NCBI GenBank assembly: GCA_013697915.1
Contig: JACCVY010000257.1
Location: 17,577 to 81,576 of the forward strand
DNA: 64,000 bases
From: Blastocatellia bacterium
GTDB taxonomy: Bacteria; Acidobacteriota; Blastocatellia; Pyrinomonadales; Pyrinomonadaceae
Reading direction: 5' to 3'
Position numbers and translations under genes: made by a program. The notes under the pieces were generated by a model that was not told where the DNA came from, searched no databases, and worked only from the letters and a program-made list of their open reading frames with translations. This document shows positions 1-62,603 of the stretch, piece by piece (within the stretch, counting starts at the first letter, position 1; every line of letters begins with the position of its first letter).

Positions 1-480
1 GCAGAGTTGGTCGGTTACGGCATGACGGCGGATGCGTTTCACTTAACGATGCCGGACGAGACGGGCTCAGGCGCCATTCGCGTGATGACGAAGACCATGA
101 AGGACGCTGGAATAAAACCGGAGCAGGTCGGGTACATTAATGCCCATGGCACTTCGACCCCTTACAACGACAAGTTTGAAACACTGGCCATCAAGAAAAC
201 TTTCGGCGAGCATGCGTACAAGCTTGCGGTCAGTTCGACAAAGTCGATGACGGGCCATTTGCTGGGCGCAGCCGGCGGGATTGAAGGCGTGTTTTCAGTG
301 TTGGCTTTACATCGCAAGGTGTTGCCGCCGACGATTAATTACGTCAATCCCGATCCGGATTGCGATCTTGACTACGTGCCGAATGTTCCGCGCGAGGCGG
401 AGGTCGAGTACGCGCTGTCGAATAGTTTTGGTTTTGGCGGGACGAACTCGGCGTTGTTGTTTAAGCGGTACGAAGCGTAG
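1..480 (+). CDS. fabF: 3-oxoacyl-ACP synthase II, C-terminal part (5' end outside window)
   Basis: Frame open from base 1; [27 protein letters not shown] and [10 protein letters not shown] thiolase-fold ketosynthase motifs. Confidence 0.95.
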
Positions 481-563
481 TCAGTAGTCAGTTGTTAGTG
501 GTCAGTTGCACGCTACCTAGACGAGCCACTGACAACTGACAACTAACAACTGACTACTGACAG
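478..563. repeat. 7-mer-period hairpin, fabF-etfB intergenic
   Basis: Arm 1 AGTCAGT AGTCAGT TGTTAGT GGTCAGT; arm 2 reverse complement GTCAGTA GTCAGTT GTTAGTT GTCAGTT GTCAGTG. Confidence 0.9.
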
Positions 564-572
564 CGGACTAAT

Positions 573-1346
573 ATGAAGATTCTAGTAATGATGAAACAGG
601 TCGCGAACAAAGACGCGATCCTGAGAATCAACAAAGAAAACACCTGGATTGAGGAAGGCGATCTTTCTTTCGAGGTGAGCGAATCGGACGGCTACGCTTT
701 GGAAGAAGCTCTACGCGTCAAGGAAAAGCTCGGCGGTGAAGTGGTTGTTTGTTCCATGGGACCGCAGCGAGTGAAGAGTGTGATCAAAGACGCGCTGGCG
801 CGCGGTGCTGACCGGGCAATTCATGTGGTTGGGGATAACCTGGGCCAACTCTCGCCTTATGCCGCAGCGAGCGCGCTGGTCGCCGCGATCCGTGATGAGA
901 ATCCGGATTTAATTCTGACGGGATTGCAGTCGGACGATTACGGCTACGGACAAACCGGCGTGATCATGGCCGAGCTGCTGGGAATACCGCACGCGACTAT
1001 CGCGATTGAGGTTGACGCTTCCGGTGACAAGCTTCGTGTCAAGCGCGAGCTGGAAAGTGGCTGGTACCAATGGTACTCGATGCCGCTGCCCGCTTTGTTG
1101 ACGATTCAATCAGGCATCAGCCAGATTCGTTATGCAACACTAAAGGGCATCATGGCTGCCAAGAAGAAAGAGATTAAGGAAGTCACGCCAGCAGCCGAGA
1201 TCGTAGATCGTCCCACGCATCAGCGCATCGAAAGGATTTATCTGCCGCAAAAAAGCAAGCAGACGCAGTTGCTCGGCAACGGCGATGCGAAAGCCGGCGC
1301 AGTGGCGTTGGCCGAGAAACTCCACAACGAGGCGCGCGTAATTTGA
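573..1346 (+). CDS. etfB: Electron transfer flavoprotein beta subunit
   Basis: MKILVMMKQVAN start, LTGLQSDDYGYGQTG motif; followed by etfA. Confidence 0.95.
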   Translation: MKILVMMKQVANKDAILRINKENTWIEEGDLSFEVSESDGYALEEALRVKEKLGGEVVVCSMGPQRVKSVIKDALARGADRAIHVVGDNLGQLSPYAAASALVAAIRDENPDLILTGLQSDDYGYGQTGVIMAELLGIPHATIAIEVDASGDKLRVKRELESGWYQWYSMPLPALLTIQSGISQIRYATLKGIMAAKKKEIKEVTPAAEIVDRPTHQRIERIYLPQKSKQTQLLGNGDAKAGAVALAEKLHNEARVI

Positions 1347-4349: not shown

Positions 4350-5315
4350 ATGGCTACGCAATCTTTTATAGACACCGATCCAGCGCGACGCGCGCAATTG
4401 CTCCACGGCGCTGCTGTCGCTGCGCAAATCAAACTGGAAGCCACGCGCGAGGTGGAACGGCTATGGAAAGATCATCAGGTCAGGCCTTGTCTGGCGGCAG
4501 TTCGAGTGGGCGATGATCCCGCCTCAGCCGTCTACGTGCGGAACAAGATAAAAGCTTCGGCGGAAGTTGGCATCCGTTCGGAACACCACGCGCTGACGGC
4601 TACCACAAACTCTATTGAACTGCTCGATCTAATAGCGTCGCTTAACGACCGCGACGACGTCGACGGTATCCTGGTACAACTTCCGCTGCCCGCGGAAATC
4701 GATGCGGACAAAATCATTGAAGCAGTCGATCCGCAAAAGGATGTCGATGGGTTCCATCCTTTAAACGTTGGACGATTAGCGCTTGGCAGGCCGGCTTTCG
4801 CGCCTTGCACGCCCGCGGGCGTAATTGAGTTGCTGGATCGATCAGGAATACCCATTGCCGGCGCCGGCGCCTGCGTAGTTGGCCGCAGTCAAATTGTAGG
4901 CCGGCCCATGGCACAACTGCTGTTGCAAAGGGACGCCACTGTTACGGTCTGTCACTCGCGCACGCGCGACCTGGCGGCGGTAACGCGCGCAGCGGACTTA
5001 CTGATCGTAGCCATCGGCCGCCCTGGTTTTATTGGCCGCGAGCATATCAAACCGGGTGCGACCGTTATCGATGTCGGCATGAACAGCGTGACTGATGAAG
5101 CTGTTGCGAGAGAATTATTCGGCGCAGACGCAGAAAAGCGAATCGAAATAATTTCAAAGCGCGGGTACACCCTGGTGGGCGACGTGAACCCGGCCGAGGC
5201 GGACGCAGTCGCCGGTCGGCGCACGCCGGTGCCGGGCGGCGTCGGTCTTCTGACTGTGGCGATGTTGCTGCGAAATACGGTTAAGGCGGCGAAGCTGCGG
5301 AGGGGAATGGAATGA
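4350..5315 (+). CDS. folD: Methylenetetrahydrofolate dehydrogenase/cyclohydrolase
   Basis: VDGILVQLPLP, KDVDGFHPLNVGRL, VVGRSQIVGRPMAQLL, PVPGGVGLLTVAML. Confidence 0.97.
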   Translation: MATQSFIDTDPARRAQLLHGAAVAAQIKLEATREVERLWKDHQVRPCLAAVRVGDDPASAVYVRNKIKASAEVGIRSEHHALTATTNSIELLDLIASLNDRDDVDGILVQLPLPAEIDADKIIEAVDPQKDVDGFHPLNVGRLALGRPAFAPCTPAGVIELLDRSGIPIAGAGACVVGRSQIVGRPMAQLLLQRDATVTVCHSRTRDLAAVTRAADLLIVAIGRPGFIGREHIKPGATVIDVGMNSVTDEAVARELFGADAEKRIEIISKRGYTLVGDVNPAEADAVAGRRTPVPGGVGLLTVAMLLRNTVKAAKLRRGME

Positions 5316-5425
5316 GCAAACAGTAAACAGTGTAGGGTAAGAGCAAGCAAAACTTTCGTCATCCCCTACTCGTCATTCCGTACTGTTCACTGTTCCCGGT
5401 TAACTGTTTACTTTTCACTGTTTCC
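5315..5425. repeat. 7-mer-period hairpin, folD-coaE intergenic
   Basis: AACAGTA AACAGTG versus ACTGTTC ACTGTTC CCGGTTA ACTGTTT ACTTTTC ACTGTTT. Confidence 0.85.
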
Positions 5426-9997: not shown

Positions 9998-10101
9998 AGA
10001 TTTTCCATTTGTCATTTGACATTTTTCATTTGCCATCGAAAGCGTCGAGGCGTTGTTTTAAATGAACAATGATAATTGATAAATGGCAAATGGAAAATCT
10101 G
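9998..10101. repeat. 7-mer-period hairpin upstream of oppB
   Basis: CATTTGT CATTTGA CATTTTT CATTTGC CATCG; arm 2 reverse complement CATTTGC CATTTAT CAATTAT CATTGTT CATTT. Confidence 0.9.
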
Positions 10102-12197: not shown

Positions 12198-13226
12198 ATG
12201 AACAATAACGGAAATCTTCTGGAAGTCACTGACCTGCGCACCTACTTCGACACCGAAGACGGGATCGTCAAGGCTGTTGATGGTATCTCGTTTCAGCTTA
12301 AGCGCGGCGAGACGCTGGGCATCGTGGGCGAATCTGGCTCAGGCAAGTCAGTCACAAATCTTTCGATCATTCGCCTGGTGCCAACGCCGCCGGGCAAGAT
12401 CGTTTCCGGCAAAGTGATCTTCGACGGACAAAATTTACTGACGCTGAGTAACGAAGCTGTGCGTCACATTCGCGGCCGTCGCATTGCCATGATCTTTCAG
12501 GATCCAATGACCTCGTTGAATCCTTTCATGAAAGTCTCGCGCCAGTTGATGGAGATGACCCGTCTGCATCTTGGCCACACGAAGCAGCAGGCGTACGAAC
12601 ACGCCATCAAGATGCTCGAGACGGTGGGCATTCCGGATGCGCGCGCTCGCGCTAACAACTATCCGCACGAATTTTCGGGTGGCATGCGCCAGCGAGTGAT
12701 GATTGCCATGGCACTTTCCTGCGAACCGGAATTGTTGATTGCTGACGAACCTACGACCGCCCTCGACGTTACTATTCAGGCGCAAATTCTGGAATTGATA
12801 AAGAGACTAAAACAAGCGACTGGAACCAGCGTGATATTGATTACACACGACCTGGGCATTGTTGCGGGTATGACTGACCATTTGCTGGTCATGTATGCCG
12901 GAAAGATTTTTGAGCAAGCGCCGACAAAAGAGTTATTCGCCACGCCCGGAAATCCGTATACGAAAGGTTTGCTGCGATCGGTCCCGGATCCGACAGCGGA
13001 ACAGGGCGAGCTTTATCAGATTCCGGGTTTGCCGCCGGACGTAGCGCACTTACCACCGGGATGTCCCTTTGCGGCGCGTTGCGATCGCGTCCAGGAGATT
13101 TGTCATCGCGAATTTCCGCCGTTTGTGCAGTTAACCGCGGATCATTGTTCGTTGTGCCATTTCGCCCATGAGGTTTACGAAGAGTCGCGCGCGGAAGGGG
13201 CACGAAGTTCAGAGTCCAATCTTTAG
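12198..13226 (+). CDS. oppD: Peptide ABC transporter ATPase, OppD type
   Basis: GESGSGKS Walker [17 protein letters not shown]-terminal oligopeptide-binding domain; upstream ATG at 12183 lies in a palindrome. Confidence 0.93.
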
Positions 13227-13281
13227 ATTGCTGCTTAGTGGCAGCCAACGTAAACGCAAGCAAAAGCTTGTACTCTGAACT
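13206..13281. repeat. Palindrome between oppD and oppF, overlapping oppD stop
   Basis: AGTTCAGAGT ... ACTCTGAACT. Confidence 0.7.
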
Positions 13282-19091: not shown

Positions 19092-19318
19092 CAGAGGACA
19101 GAGGTCAGAGAACAGAGGTCAGAGGTCAAAGAACAGAAGTCAGAGTCAGAGAACGGAAGTCAGAGGTCAGAGAACGGAAGTCAGAGCTCAGTTAGATTCT
19201 CAAGTTGTTTCAAGCTATAGTTCCATCTGCTGTCGTGGCAAATGTCGTGGCCAATTTTCCGACGTCTGATCTCTGGCCTCTGATCTCTGATTTCTGACCT
19301 CTGTTCTCTGACCTCTGT
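19092..19318. repeat. 7-mer-period hairpin, STAS/HD-GYP intergenic
   Basis: About 14 units of CAGAGGT-like heptamers in arm 1; arm 2 reverse complement has 8 units. Confidence 0.92.
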
Positions 19319-20891: not shown

Positions 20892-21533
20892 GATCTCATT
20901 AGCACCGCGGCTTCAGCCCGGTGATAACTGTCGCCACGCGATTCCAAACCGTTTCAACGGTTTTATTATTCTTCGTGCCACTCCAACCCATACTTCTGAA
21001 CGAATAGTTCGAACTCCTCAGCGAAGCTTTTCCTTCGATGATGTTCCTCTTGCCCGGCAATATAAGCTGCCACTCGCTCAACATCTGAGTGAGAAACTGA
21101 AAACGCTCCATAGCCGCGTCCCCAAGCGAATCGACCGCGTAATAATTTCTCCTCATTTATCCAATGCGACGATCCACCTTTGAATAACTGAGCGACCTCT
21201 TCGATAGTCTTGTTAGTAGGAAGGTCAATTAAAGTGTGTACATGTTCTGGATTTACGTAATTGATCTTCATGTAGATTCCTTTTTCCACCGAGTAGTTCG
21301 ATAGAAAGTGAGAAACCCTCGCGGCGGGAGGTTTGAGGAGCATCGGTTCTCGATCGAGTGTGGCCCAAATTAGATGCAGCCAGCAGCGTGAGTAGGAATG
21401 TTTTGACATGAGGGACTTTGTATCACGGGACGATACCAGAGGCGATGACCAGCGAAGAGTAAACCGTTGAAACGGTTTACAGAATTTCTTGCATCGCTGA
21501 TCACCGGGCTAAAGCCGCGGTGTTAATGAGATC
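20892..21533. mobile_element. REP-flanked transposase unit (REPtron-like)
   Basis: GATCTCATTARCACCGCGGCTTYAGCCCGGTGAT at both ends in inverted orientation, inner AAACCGTTTCAACGGTTT palindromes, Y1 transposase inside. Confidence 0.8.
20966..21409 (-). CDS. Y1 (IS200-like / REP-associated) transposase
   Basis: NPEHVHTLIDLP HUH motif; VAAYIAGQEEHHRRKSFAEEF Tyr helix; flanked by inverted REP-like palindromes. Confidence 0.88.
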   Translation of the reverse strand: MSKHSYSRCWLHLIWATLDREPMLLKPPAARVSHFLSNYSVEKGIYMKINYVNPEHVHTLIDLPTNKTIEEVAQLFKGGSSHWINEEKLLRGRFAWGRGYGAFSVSHSDVERVAAYIAGQEEHHRRKSFAEEFELFVQKYGLEWHEE

Positions 21534-29448: not shown

Positions 29449-29455
29449 TGGACTG

Positions 29456-29553
29456 CTCTGTGCAACCTTTGTGTTCTCTGTGTCTCCGTGGTGAATTTAG
29501 TCGATGGTTAAGGCTCACCACTGAGACACAGAGTTCACAGAGAACGCACAGAG
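29456..29553. repeat. Palindrome upstream of the PBP gene
   Basis: CTCTGTG...TTCTCTGTGTCTCCGTGGTGA versus TCACCACTGAGACACAGAGTTCACAGAGAA...CACAGAG. Confidence 0.85.
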
Positions 29554-29588
29554 ACGTTCAAAATTCAAGACTATTGTGACTCCAAAAC

Positions 29589-30604: not shown

Positions 30605-30748
30605 AAAGAGCGGGGGCAAGCCCTCCTTCCCAACCTCGAGCTGATCCAAGTTGAAGGTTAATCGCTGCCGGAAAGGCTTTCAACGTCAAAGCAATCGCGC
30701 AAGTCCAATAGTCTCGAGGTCGGGAAGGAGGGCTTGCCCCCGCTCTTT
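30605..30748. repeat. Long palindrome, family C copy 1
   Basis: AAAGAGCGGGGGCAAGCCCTCCTTCCCAACCTCGAG and its inverted copy, 1 mismatch in 36. Confidence 0.92.
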
Positions 30749-37110: not shown

Positions 37111-37176
37111 GCTCGTAAACCGTAAATAGGAGATTCGCAATCGGTCGGTTCCATTTACGATTCACGATTCACGCTC
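37111..37176. repeat. Short 7-mer-period hairpin upstream of larC
   Basis: CGTAAAC CGTAAAT versus ATTTACG ATTCACG ATTCACG. Confidence 0.75.
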
Positions 37177-40863: not shown

Positions 40864-41068
40864 AGATTTACCATTTACCATTTTTTATTTCTTATTTTCC
40901 ATTGCCGATTAGTAGAAGACGGACCATGACGTTGAATTAGGAGGTAACAAATAGTTAGCTCTAAGCCTGTAAATGCCTATAGCAAAACGACAACAAAGTA
41001 AGTTTCCGCTGTTACTGCAAACGAATAAAAAATAAGAAATGAAAACTGGTAAATGGTAAATTCTGTTC
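40864..41068. repeat. 7-mer-period hairpin upstream of metG
   Basis: ACCATTT ACCATTT TTTATTT CTTATTT TCCATTG; arm 2 reverse complement ACCATTT ACCAGTT TTCATTT CTTATTT TTTATTC. Confidence 0.9.
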
Positions 41069-41101: not shown

Positions 41102-43273
41102 ATGAAAACCTTCTACGTAACAACCCCCATCTACTACGCCAACAGCCTGCCGCATCTTGGCCATCTCTACACGATGATTGTGGCCGACACGATCGCGCGT
41201 CACAAACGCCAGCAGGGAATTGAAACGTTCTTTCTCACCGGCACCGACGAACACGGTATCAACATCGAGCGCGCTGCCCAGCGGAATAATCGAACGCCCA
41301 AAGAGCAAGCCGATTACGTTGTCAGTTACTTCAAGAAGATGACGGCCCAGTTTGGTCTGGATACAGAACACTGCGGCTACGACATTTTCATGCGCACCAG
41401 CGAGCCTTTTCACTACGAGGGTGTGAGCGAGTTTTGGCGGCGCGCTGCCCGAGCGAAAACGCCCAAGGGTAATGACGCGATTTACAAGGGTCACTATGCG
41501 GGCTGGTTTTGCGCGGCCTGCGCTGCCTATAAGACCGAAGATGAATATGCAAAGCCCCGGAACGCCGGGGACCCGCCAACCTGTCTGATCCACGACCTGG
41601 CGCTCGATCGTATTTCCGAGGATAGTTATTTCTTTCGACTGTCCGACTATGGCGATGCGTTGCTGGAGCTTTACGAATCACGCCCCGATTTTGTGCAACC
41701 GGAAACGCGGAAGAATGAAGTCACCAGCTTTGTGCGCGGCGGACTACAAGATCTTTCGGTCAGCCGTTTGCAGAGTTCGGTGAGTTGGGGTGTGCCCGTG
41801 CCGGACGATCCTGACCACACAATGTATGTTTGGTTTGATGCGCTTACGAACTACATCACCGCGATTGGTTTTGGCAACGAGCAACAGAATCGTGCCGTCG
41901 GTTTTGAAAAATTCTGGCCGGCACTGCATCTGGTTGGTAAAGACATTCTGCGCTTCCATGCTGTCTATTGGCCCGCCTTCCTGATGGCGGCGGGCGTCGA
42001 ACAACCGCGCGGCATTGTGGCGCATGGCATGTGGCTCGATCCGAACGGCAGAAAAATGTCCAAGACGTTAGGTAACACGATCGAGCTGGACGTGCTTGGC
42101 AAATATTTTTCAGTGGATGCGATTCGTTATTTTTGTTTACGCGAAATGGTGTTCGGCCAGGATGGGCGCTTTGGTTATGAAGCAGTGATCGATCGCGCCA
42201 ACAGTGATTTGGCCGGCGGACTGGGCAATCTTTCCAGCCGCACGTTGACGATGATTACGCGTTACAACAGCGGCCGCGTGCCTTCAGGTGTGATCTCGGA
42301 AGATAAACTGCTGCTGGCAAAACGCGCCGGCGTGGACACCGACGCCACCACAATTGCGGGCTTCATCGAGCACGCGCGCGTACAATATCTGCAGCATCTT
42401 GAAACCTATTCATTTAGTCGCGCGCTGGAAACAGCCTGGTCCATTGTCGCGCGCGTCGACAAAATGATCAGCAAAGCGAAGCCCTGGGAGCTCGCCAAAG
42501 ATATCAACCAAACTCAGACCCTGGGTGCGGTATTGTATCGCGCCGCGGAAACGCTGCGTTGGTTATGCGTCATGCTCTATCCGGTGATGCCGGCGGCAAC
42601 GCTGGAAATTTGGCGACAGCTGAATCTCAGCGAGAAGCTACCCGAGCTGGATCCGGCAAAACTTAAATGGGGTGAACTCAAGGAAGAGGCGCCAATCGGC
42701 GAAGTAAAACCGATCTTCCCGCGCATCGATAAAGCAAAAACCATGGACGAGATAAATCGAAAGTCAGAGGTCGGAAGTCAGAAGTCAGAAGTCGGAAGGC
42801 AAGGGTCAGAAACGCATTCCGGCCAACATGCAACGGAAGCGGATGCGGTTCCAGGTGCTTCGCAAGCAGAAACCAAACCGGCTGCGCCACAACACGGCGC
42901 GACGGAAGCCGATGCCGTACCGGGCGCAGAAGGCCTCGCGAACTTAATCGATATCACCGACTTCACCAAAGTGGAACTTCGTGTGGGCCAGGTCTTAACA
43001 GCAGCGCGCATTCCAAAATCCGATAAGCTGCTGCTGTTGAGCGTGGACATTGGAGAACAGCAGCCGCGCCAGATTCTGGCGGGGATCGCGGAGCATTACA
43101 CGCCGGAAGAGCTGACGGGGCGCAAGATTGCGGTCGTTGCCAACCTCAAACCACGAAAAATGCGCGGCCATGAATCGCAAGGTATGTTGCTCGCTGCATC
43201 GGTTGGCGACGGCGACAAACCCGTGCTTGCTACCTTTGTTGATGATGTTCCCAACGGCGCCCGTCTGAAGTAA
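41102..43273 (+). CDS. metG: Methionyl-tRNA synthetase with C-terminal tRNA-binding (OB) domain
   Basis: TPIYYANSLPHLGHLYTMIVAD, KMSKTLGN, C-terminal DFTKVELRVGQVL...NLKPRKMRGHESQGMLLAAS. Confidence 0.96.
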   Translation: MKTFYVTTPIYYANSLPHLGHLYTMIVADTIARHKRQQGIETFFLTGTDEHGINIERAAQRNNRTPKEQADYVVSYFKKMTAQFGLDTEHCGYDIFMRTSEPFHYEGVSEFWRRAARAKTPKGNDAIYKGHYAGWFCAACAAYKTEDEYAKPRNAGDPPTCLIHDLALDRISEDSYFFRLSDYGDALLELYESRPDFVQPETRKNEVTSFVRGGLQDLSVSRLQSSVSWGVPVPDDPDHTMYVWFDALTNYITAIGFGNEQQNRAVGFEKFWPALHLVGKDILRFHAVYWPAFLMAAGVEQPRGIVAHGMWLDPNGRKMSKTLGNTIELDVLGKYFSVDAIRYFCLREMVFGQDGRFGYEAVIDRANSDLAGGLGNLSSRTLTMITRYNSGRVPSGVISEDKLLLAKRAGVDTDATTIAGFIEHARVQYLQHLETYSFSRALETAWSIVARVDKMISKAKPWELAKDINQTQTLGAVLYRAAETLRWLCVMLYPVMPAATLEIWRQLNLSEKLPELDPAKLKWGELKEEAPIGEVKPIFPRIDKAKTMDEINRKSEVGSQKSEVGRQGSETHSGQHATEADAVPGASQAETKPAAPQHGATEADAVPGAEGLANLIDITDFTKVELRVGQVLTAARIPKSDKLLLLSVDIGEQQPRQILAGIAEHYTPEELTGRKIAVVANLKPRKMRGHESQGMLLAASVGDGDKPVLATFVDDVPNGARLK
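42761..42812 (+). repeat. Intragenic 7-mer tandem repeat in metG linker
   Basis: AGTCAGA GGTCGGA AGTCAGA AGTCAGA AGTCGGA AGGCAAG GGTCAGA, encoding KSEVGSQKSEVGRQGSE. Confidence 0.88.
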
Positions 43274-47156: not shown

Positions 47157-47278
47157 AGATTTACCACTTCTCATTTTTCATTTGCCATTTTCTATTTGCT
47201 CCCACCAACGGTCCACATCCCTGGCACGCGACCTCCAATGGCCAATGAGAAATGAAAAATGATATATGGAAAATCTGC
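47157..47278. repeat. 7-mer-period hairpin upstream of the nucleotidyltransferase gene
   Basis: ACCACTT CTCATTT TTCATTT GCCATTT TCTATTT; arm 2 reverse complement TCCATAT ATCATTT TTCATTT CTCATTG GCCATTG. Confidence 0.9.
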
Positions 47279-62420: not shown

Positions 62421-62603
62421 TTCGCTCCAGGGGAGCGAGATGTCTATAACTACGAGCGCGCACCCAAAAAATCCTCGCTCCTCTAGGAGCGAAACCCGGC
62501 AGCGGAACTTCGCCAAGGCAGGGAAAAGGGATTGCGCTCCAACCGAACTTCGGTGTAAAGAAGGCCCGTCAGGCTATAAACAGCTCGCTCCTCTGGGGCG
62601 AAG
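62421..62603. repeat. Long palindrome with internal hairpins, upstream of the VWA gene
   Basis: TTCGCTCCAGGGGAGCGAGATGTCTATAAC versus inverted TTCGCCCCAGAGGAGCGAGCTGTTTATAGC. Confidence 0.85.

Follow-up and report, generated by a model that had tools for sequence, protein, structure and literature searches.

In the genome of an uncultured member of the Pyrinomonadaceae (Blastocatellia, Acidobacteriota), the gap between fabF and etfB is taken up almost entirely by a hairpin that probably belongs, as a short form without a gene, to a class of elements resembling the intervening sequences (IVSs) of 23S rRNA genes. Each element would have a pair of inverted arms, built from degenerate heptamers in tandem whose words keep a fixed polarity, and the long form, of ~450–550 nt, would carry in its loop a gene for S23p, the four-helix-bundle protein of 23S rRNA intervening sequences (PF05635, TIGR02436). 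The elements would occupy stop/start junctions of co-directional genes, with neither gene broken. Because the fabF-etfB loop is too short to keep an S23p gene, the hairpin is assigned to the class by the arms, polarity, position, and genome that it shares with other members, and because this loop has no S23p ORF, we use the label "IVS-like class" and do not call the hairpin an IVS.

In the 64,000-nt stretch of DNA that was analyzed (the window), the 3′ part of fabF (1–480, forward strand; β-ketoacyl synthase C-terminal domain, PF02801) is followed by etfB (573–1346, forward strand; electron transfer flavoprotein domain, PF01012), with the identity of both genes confirmed by Pfam. The left arm of the hairpin (477–508) is made of tandem degenerate heptamers of the GTCAGTN type and the right arm (528–562) of the ACTGACN type, reverse-complementary to the left arm over 533–561. 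Period-7 arrays were found at 477–506 and 528–562, and the best-paired arms, 480–508 and 533–561, are 29 nt each and 97% complementary, separated by a 24-nt loop (509–532). An earlier note on this DNA had described the gap as a hairpin of degenerate heptamers with the fabF stop codon in its left arm. The computed arms, arrays, and fold bear out both statements: the stop codon TAG (478–480) lies inside the left array, the start of etfB is at 573, and the hairpin RNA folds with −52.5 kcal/mol (z −8.3 relative to dinucleotide shuffles). The loop contains neither an ORF nor an S23p remnant, an Rfam search of the window gave zero matches, and the stem is not followed by the T-tract of an intrinsic terminator. 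A near-copy of the hairpin, loop included, is present at a distant locus of the same genome (G000:C78:2460-2534; 88% over 75 nt). As an intergenic run of tandem degenerate heptamers the hairpin matches the description of the STRR, and as two inverted degenerate-heptamer arms that form a stem it matches the Nostoc P6b type. It also has the terminal inverted repeats and long stem of an IVS, although it lies between two protein genes and not in a 23S rRNA gene.

The connection to S23p comes from related long members of the class, in this genome and in others, whose loops contain the S23p ORF that is absent from the fabF-etfB hairpin. Four of the six widest hairpins have an ORF in the "loop", and wide members match PF05635 at G000:C80:65138-65416, G004:C2:190022-190336, and G017:C21:572786-573103. 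Loop proteins that were tested directly matched TIGR02436, four helix bundle protein, and showed a weak relationship to Avd. Among 68 S23p loci in related genomes, which are the better-scoring PF05635 matches and therefore a non-random draw, 57 lie between inverted arms, and in 47 of these the arms have period 7, compared with 1/172 small and 0/294 larger control genes (odds ratio about 380). These arms use many words; at locus L268 they are of the TCAGTAG type with the polarity seen in the fabF-etfB hairpin. Plasmids from four phyla (those of Cyanobacteria, Gemmatimonadota, Azospirillum, and Riemerella) carry S23p genes that are bracketed in 17/17 cases, 14 with period 7. Bracketed small genes on Nostoc and Hymenobacter plasmid stretches numbered 0/39, and the Avd gene of a diversity-generating retroelement, included as a control, is not bracketed. 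S23p genes are also found within operons, between cas6 and cas4 (twice), between cas10 and cmr3, and between nrdB and nrdA. The arm words of the two cas6-cas4 elements differ (L301, Anabaena sp. 90 plasmid; L304, Pseudanabaena galeata plasmid), and the left array of the Anabaena element is ~260 nt long. At some S23p genes the inverted arms have period 8 or 9 (L290, L297, L269, L308, L312, and L310), so units of other lengths than 7 nt also occur. The number of S23p genes is an imperfect predictor of heptamer load: G016 and G008, both in assemblies that are 88% complete, have heptamer hairpins with zero PF05635 matches, and G009 has 13 matches yet no array in the 13.5 kb sampled. None of the other short loops tested holds a credible S23p remnant.

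A junction of one gene pair, followed through nine congeners, was found in several states. It is empty in G011, with a stop/start overlap TAATG, and in G014 it holds an AGTTTC hairpin of ~75 nt that begins immediately after the stop codon and ends 2 nt before the start codon. G001, G002, and G010 have an S23p gene in GTAAATN arms, the S23p ORF of G009 appears damaged, and G004 and G006 have unrelated palindromes. In G000, the genome of the window, GTAAATN arms enclose a 196-nt loop in which the S23p start MRPHQKLEV and the C-terminal LLRELDRIGRLITGLVRHL are kept and the middle is missing, with both ends recognizable (E 6e-6 and 2e-8). This internally deleted S23p gene in retained arms indicates that a gene-less hairpin can derive from a gene-bearing one by deletion, as in MITEs. 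Short forms would arise at least partly by such internal deletion, seen once here, and would then persist alone in the manner of MITEs and gene-less IVSs. Short IVSs without a gene also exist. The sister species G002 and G010 differ at one further junction, where each has an S23p gene but the two genes point in opposite directions and their arms are unlike, which indicates that one element has replaced another. The position upstream of metG is occupied by an S23p element in G017, by CATTT hairpins in G000 and G004, and by about 21 nt in G015. Whole elements would thus be exchanged at the same junction for ones with other words, and such exchange would explain why the architecture outlives the sequence. 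The elements may move as units; we infer both their mobility and their function, and the observations that relate to mobility are that one junction occurs both empty and filled and that a single near-copy lies at a distant locus.

At the fabF-etfB site, the architecture persists and the word changes. When close relatives were compared for presence or absence of the hairpin, most proved to have one in this gap too, with at least five different words: GGTCTTT in G004 (EtfB 97% identical), G006, and G017; GTACTTT or GAACTTT in G001, G002, G010, G011, and G008; TCAGTNG in G013, G007, L065, L075, and L077; GCTGTTA or TCAGC-type words in G016, G021, G019, and L076; and AGTTTTC in L064 and L070. G012 has a nested hairpin with TCAGT arms outside and GGTCTTT arms inside, and the gap lacks a hairpin in G015 (0 nt) and G003 (−1 nt). 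Between G002 and G010, at 3.5% divergence, the words are kept and indels of 8 and 21 nt distinguish the arrays, the kind of small change by which arm length may evolve. Words also switch in register within one array. With one architecture, many words, and loops that are unrelated across loci, where residual heptamers are the only homology found, the arms belong to no single conserved sequence family.

Period-7 blocks are paired as inverted arms beyond expectation, an outcome that the earlier note had made a test of its proposal. In 1.6 Mb of stretches sampled from six genomes, with genes called by a simple purpose-made caller, 73/135 arrays (54%) are accompanied by an inverted partner no more than 300 nt away, compared with 5 under the null and with 18 that have a direct partner, and the number rises to 85 of the 135 within 800 nt. 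The ~46% of arrays with no inverted partner within 300 nt count against the IVS-like reading. Apart from its multiples, 7 is the sole clearly enriched repeat period in the sampled congeners. In 464 kb of the genome of the window there are 42 period-7 arrays with a score of at least 14 and 0 in shuffles; other periods, multiples of 7 aside, give a few arrays at most at this score, and 25/72 hairpins have period 7. Arrays in the window have period 7 or a multiple of it, besides one each at periods 17 and 20, and three shuffles of the window gave zero arrays. A test of unit order in the arms showed a suggestive excess that is non-significant per locus and biased by the choice of arms.

Five other gaps in the window have the two-arm architecture, so that the seven counted in the earlier note were slightly too many. 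Three have the word CATTTNN (9998–10100, 40866–41061 upstream of metG, and 47157–47276), one has CAGAGGT and occupies the whole stop-to-start gap (19092–19318), and a weaker one has AAACAG (5309–5425). One period-7 array, at 37153–37173, has no partner arm.

The polarity of the TCAGT word is absolute: the orientation GTCAGT..ACTGAC occurs in 8/297 Acidobacteriota genomes and the reverse pattern in 0/297. Other word families agree with this fixed orientation. A G+T-rich left arm fails as a general polarity rule, being true on average (0.58) and broken by several families, and a by-eye check of whether stop or start codons within the arms set the polarity gave no consistent rule. A TCAGT-armed hairpin on a plasmid of Hymenobacter yonginensis (Bacteroidota; L222:10935-11020) fills a co-directional gap with the same polarity.

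The earlier note had attributed the hairpins to a generative process and not to one transposed sequence. The many words, unrelated loops, inverted pairing, and indels of 8 and 21 nt agree with that proposal, whereas the near-copy with its loop, the absolute TCAGT polarity, the S23p cargo, and the one deletion derivative point to the behavior of an element class, and a generative process on its own would not be the full explanation. In its strictest form, this alternative would be purely mutational: slippage makes the arrays, template switching inverts them, the hairpins survive at operon junctions where they do the least harm, nothing moves, and S23p is there for another reason. We consider this unlikely. 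The diversity of words and loops, the array indels at 3.5% divergence, and the in-register word switches all favor it, and hairpins are known to be created and repaired by template switching (PMC8794818). However, fold-back predicts both polarities and one alone is observed, and mutation by itself does not predict the S23p association, the deletion derivative, or a distant near-copy that includes the loop. In the IVS-like class, replication slippage and template switching could still be what makes and repairs the arms.

The hairpins are concentrated where genes of one operon would meet. Co-directional gaps hold 61/68 intergenic heptamer hairpins (p 7e-6), and convergent (2/68) and divergent gaps have fewer than expected. 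The distance from left arm to stop codon is at most 10 nt in 32/44 paired gaps (random 12), and in 20 of the 44 the arms are at both gap ends (random 5), even when they are 424–450 nt apart. The CATTT family is an exception, located at least 29 nt from the stop codon, and counts against the IVS-like reading. Anchoring at stop codons, confinement to co-directional gaps, and an architecture that is kept as its sequence changes could also be expected if the hairpins were mainly functional operon RNA structures, such as 3′-end stems, attenuators, or terminators, with the structure selected and the words free. A T-rich stretch after the stem in 10/74 cases, compared with a 2% background, also speaks for it. 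Even so, this explanation is improbable: most hairpins lack a T-tract, they are depleted in the convergent gaps where terminators belong, G015 and G003 manage without a hairpin at the fabF-etfB junction, and both the S23p cargo and the polarity are left unexplained. As members of the IVS-like class, the hairpins may nonetheless act in mRNA, where the stem would hold the upstream stop codon near the downstream start codon and, by analogy with the stems of rRNA IVSs, could be a substrate for RNase III. REP/REPIN-like palindromes mobilized by RAYT (Y1) transposases are more improbable still, since, despite 13 Y1_Tnp (PF01797) matches in this genome, one of them in the window (IS200-like/RAYT gene, 20966–21409, reverse strand), and none in the hairpin-poor G015, no period-7 array lies next to any of ten Y1_Tnp loci read, G011 and G021 have heptamer hairpins without a Y1_Tnp match, and the words are diverse.

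Several known systems resemble these elements in part. The 23S rRNA IVSs of Coxiella, Leptospira, and Brucella are ~430 nt long, have an S23p ORF, and have been described as selfish, with the Coxiella IVS having terminal inverted repeats, the S23p ORF in its loop, and excision by RNase III (PMC4990558). The long stem formed from terminal inverted repeats, the S23p ORF in the loop, and the short ORF-less forms are common to both, whereas rRNA IVSs lie in rRNA genes and, as far as described, have plain non-heptamer arms, and the present elements lie between protein genes, with a variety of words in their period-7 arms. In the Nostoc trnL intron, the P6b stem is built from heptamers of Class I (TDNGATT) or Class II (NNTGAGT) (PMC4476775). 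It is likewise an inverted two-arm hairpin of degenerate heptamers with class replacement at a fixed site and whole-heptamer indels, so the two-arm form, of which the earlier note knew no description, was already known at one site. In contrast to that single site in a group I intron, for which a link to S23p was not made, the present hairpins occur genome-wide, at operon junctions, and with many words. Intergenic heptamer arrays include the TAACTGA direct repeats of Beggiatoaceae and the cyanobacterial STRR (PMC4679880). The TAACTGA word is related and is oriented alike with respect to the start codon downstream, but these are mostly single direct arrays (one inverted in 170), and an element was not proposed. 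REP/REPINs and MITEs are also small intergenic palindromes and gene-less derivatives of gene-bearing elements (PMC3116915), unlike which the present hairpins have period-7 arms, no conserved end sequence, and no transposase link that we found. The two-arm heptamer hairpin at one site and single heptamer arrays in many organisms are therefore known (PMC4476775, PMC4679880). Our literature search found no paper tying heptamer repeats to S23p, which is weak evidence of novelty because most subscription journals were outside its coverage.

To our knowledge, the heptamer repeats seen for decades in cyanobacteria and other bacteria have had no explanation, and the abundant S23p/four-helix-bundle proteins have no known function. 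The strong association of S23p with heptamers in multiple phyla, often in operons, gives both puzzles a common frame in an IVS-like element and links heptamer repeats to 23S rRNA intervening sequences. It also makes binding of S23p to the arms, cutting of the stem by RNase III, and movement of the element directly testable questions. More tentatively, and with the balance slightly against it, the heptamer repeats (STRR, TAACTGA arrays, and heptamer stems) found in many phyla might all be terminal arms of one ancient class of S23p-encoding mobile hairpins. Members of such a class would take up places at operon junctions, in some lineages also in rRNA genes and introns, would be recognized by architecture and not by sequence, and would shed gene-less copies like the fabF-etfB hairpin.

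The repeat content of these genomes varies in other ways. The congener G015, in which 280 kb contained no period-7 array, is nearly free of hairpins, lacks Y1_Tnp matches, and has one S23p match, a weak one. Its operon gaps are very short (0–11 nt for the first junctions that were compared), and the genome looks as though its entire repeat load had disappeared or had never been acquired. In the window, a period-7 array GTCAGAGGTCGGAAGTCAGAAG at 42763–42798 lies within the ORF of the methionyl-tRNA synthetase gene (41102–43273), and the stretches sampled from G004 contain a comparable array, likewise within a gene, at the matching location. The window also has several hairpins without period 7. 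Among them are palindrome families at 13206–13281 (AGTTCAGAGTCCAAGCTTTAG..), 30605–30748 (AAAGAGCGGGGGCAAGCC..), 62421–62602 (TTCGCTCCAGGGGAGCGA..), and 29449–29560 (CTCTGTGTCTCCGTGGTGA..), which recur in the gaps of congeners and sometimes replace a heptamer hairpin there.
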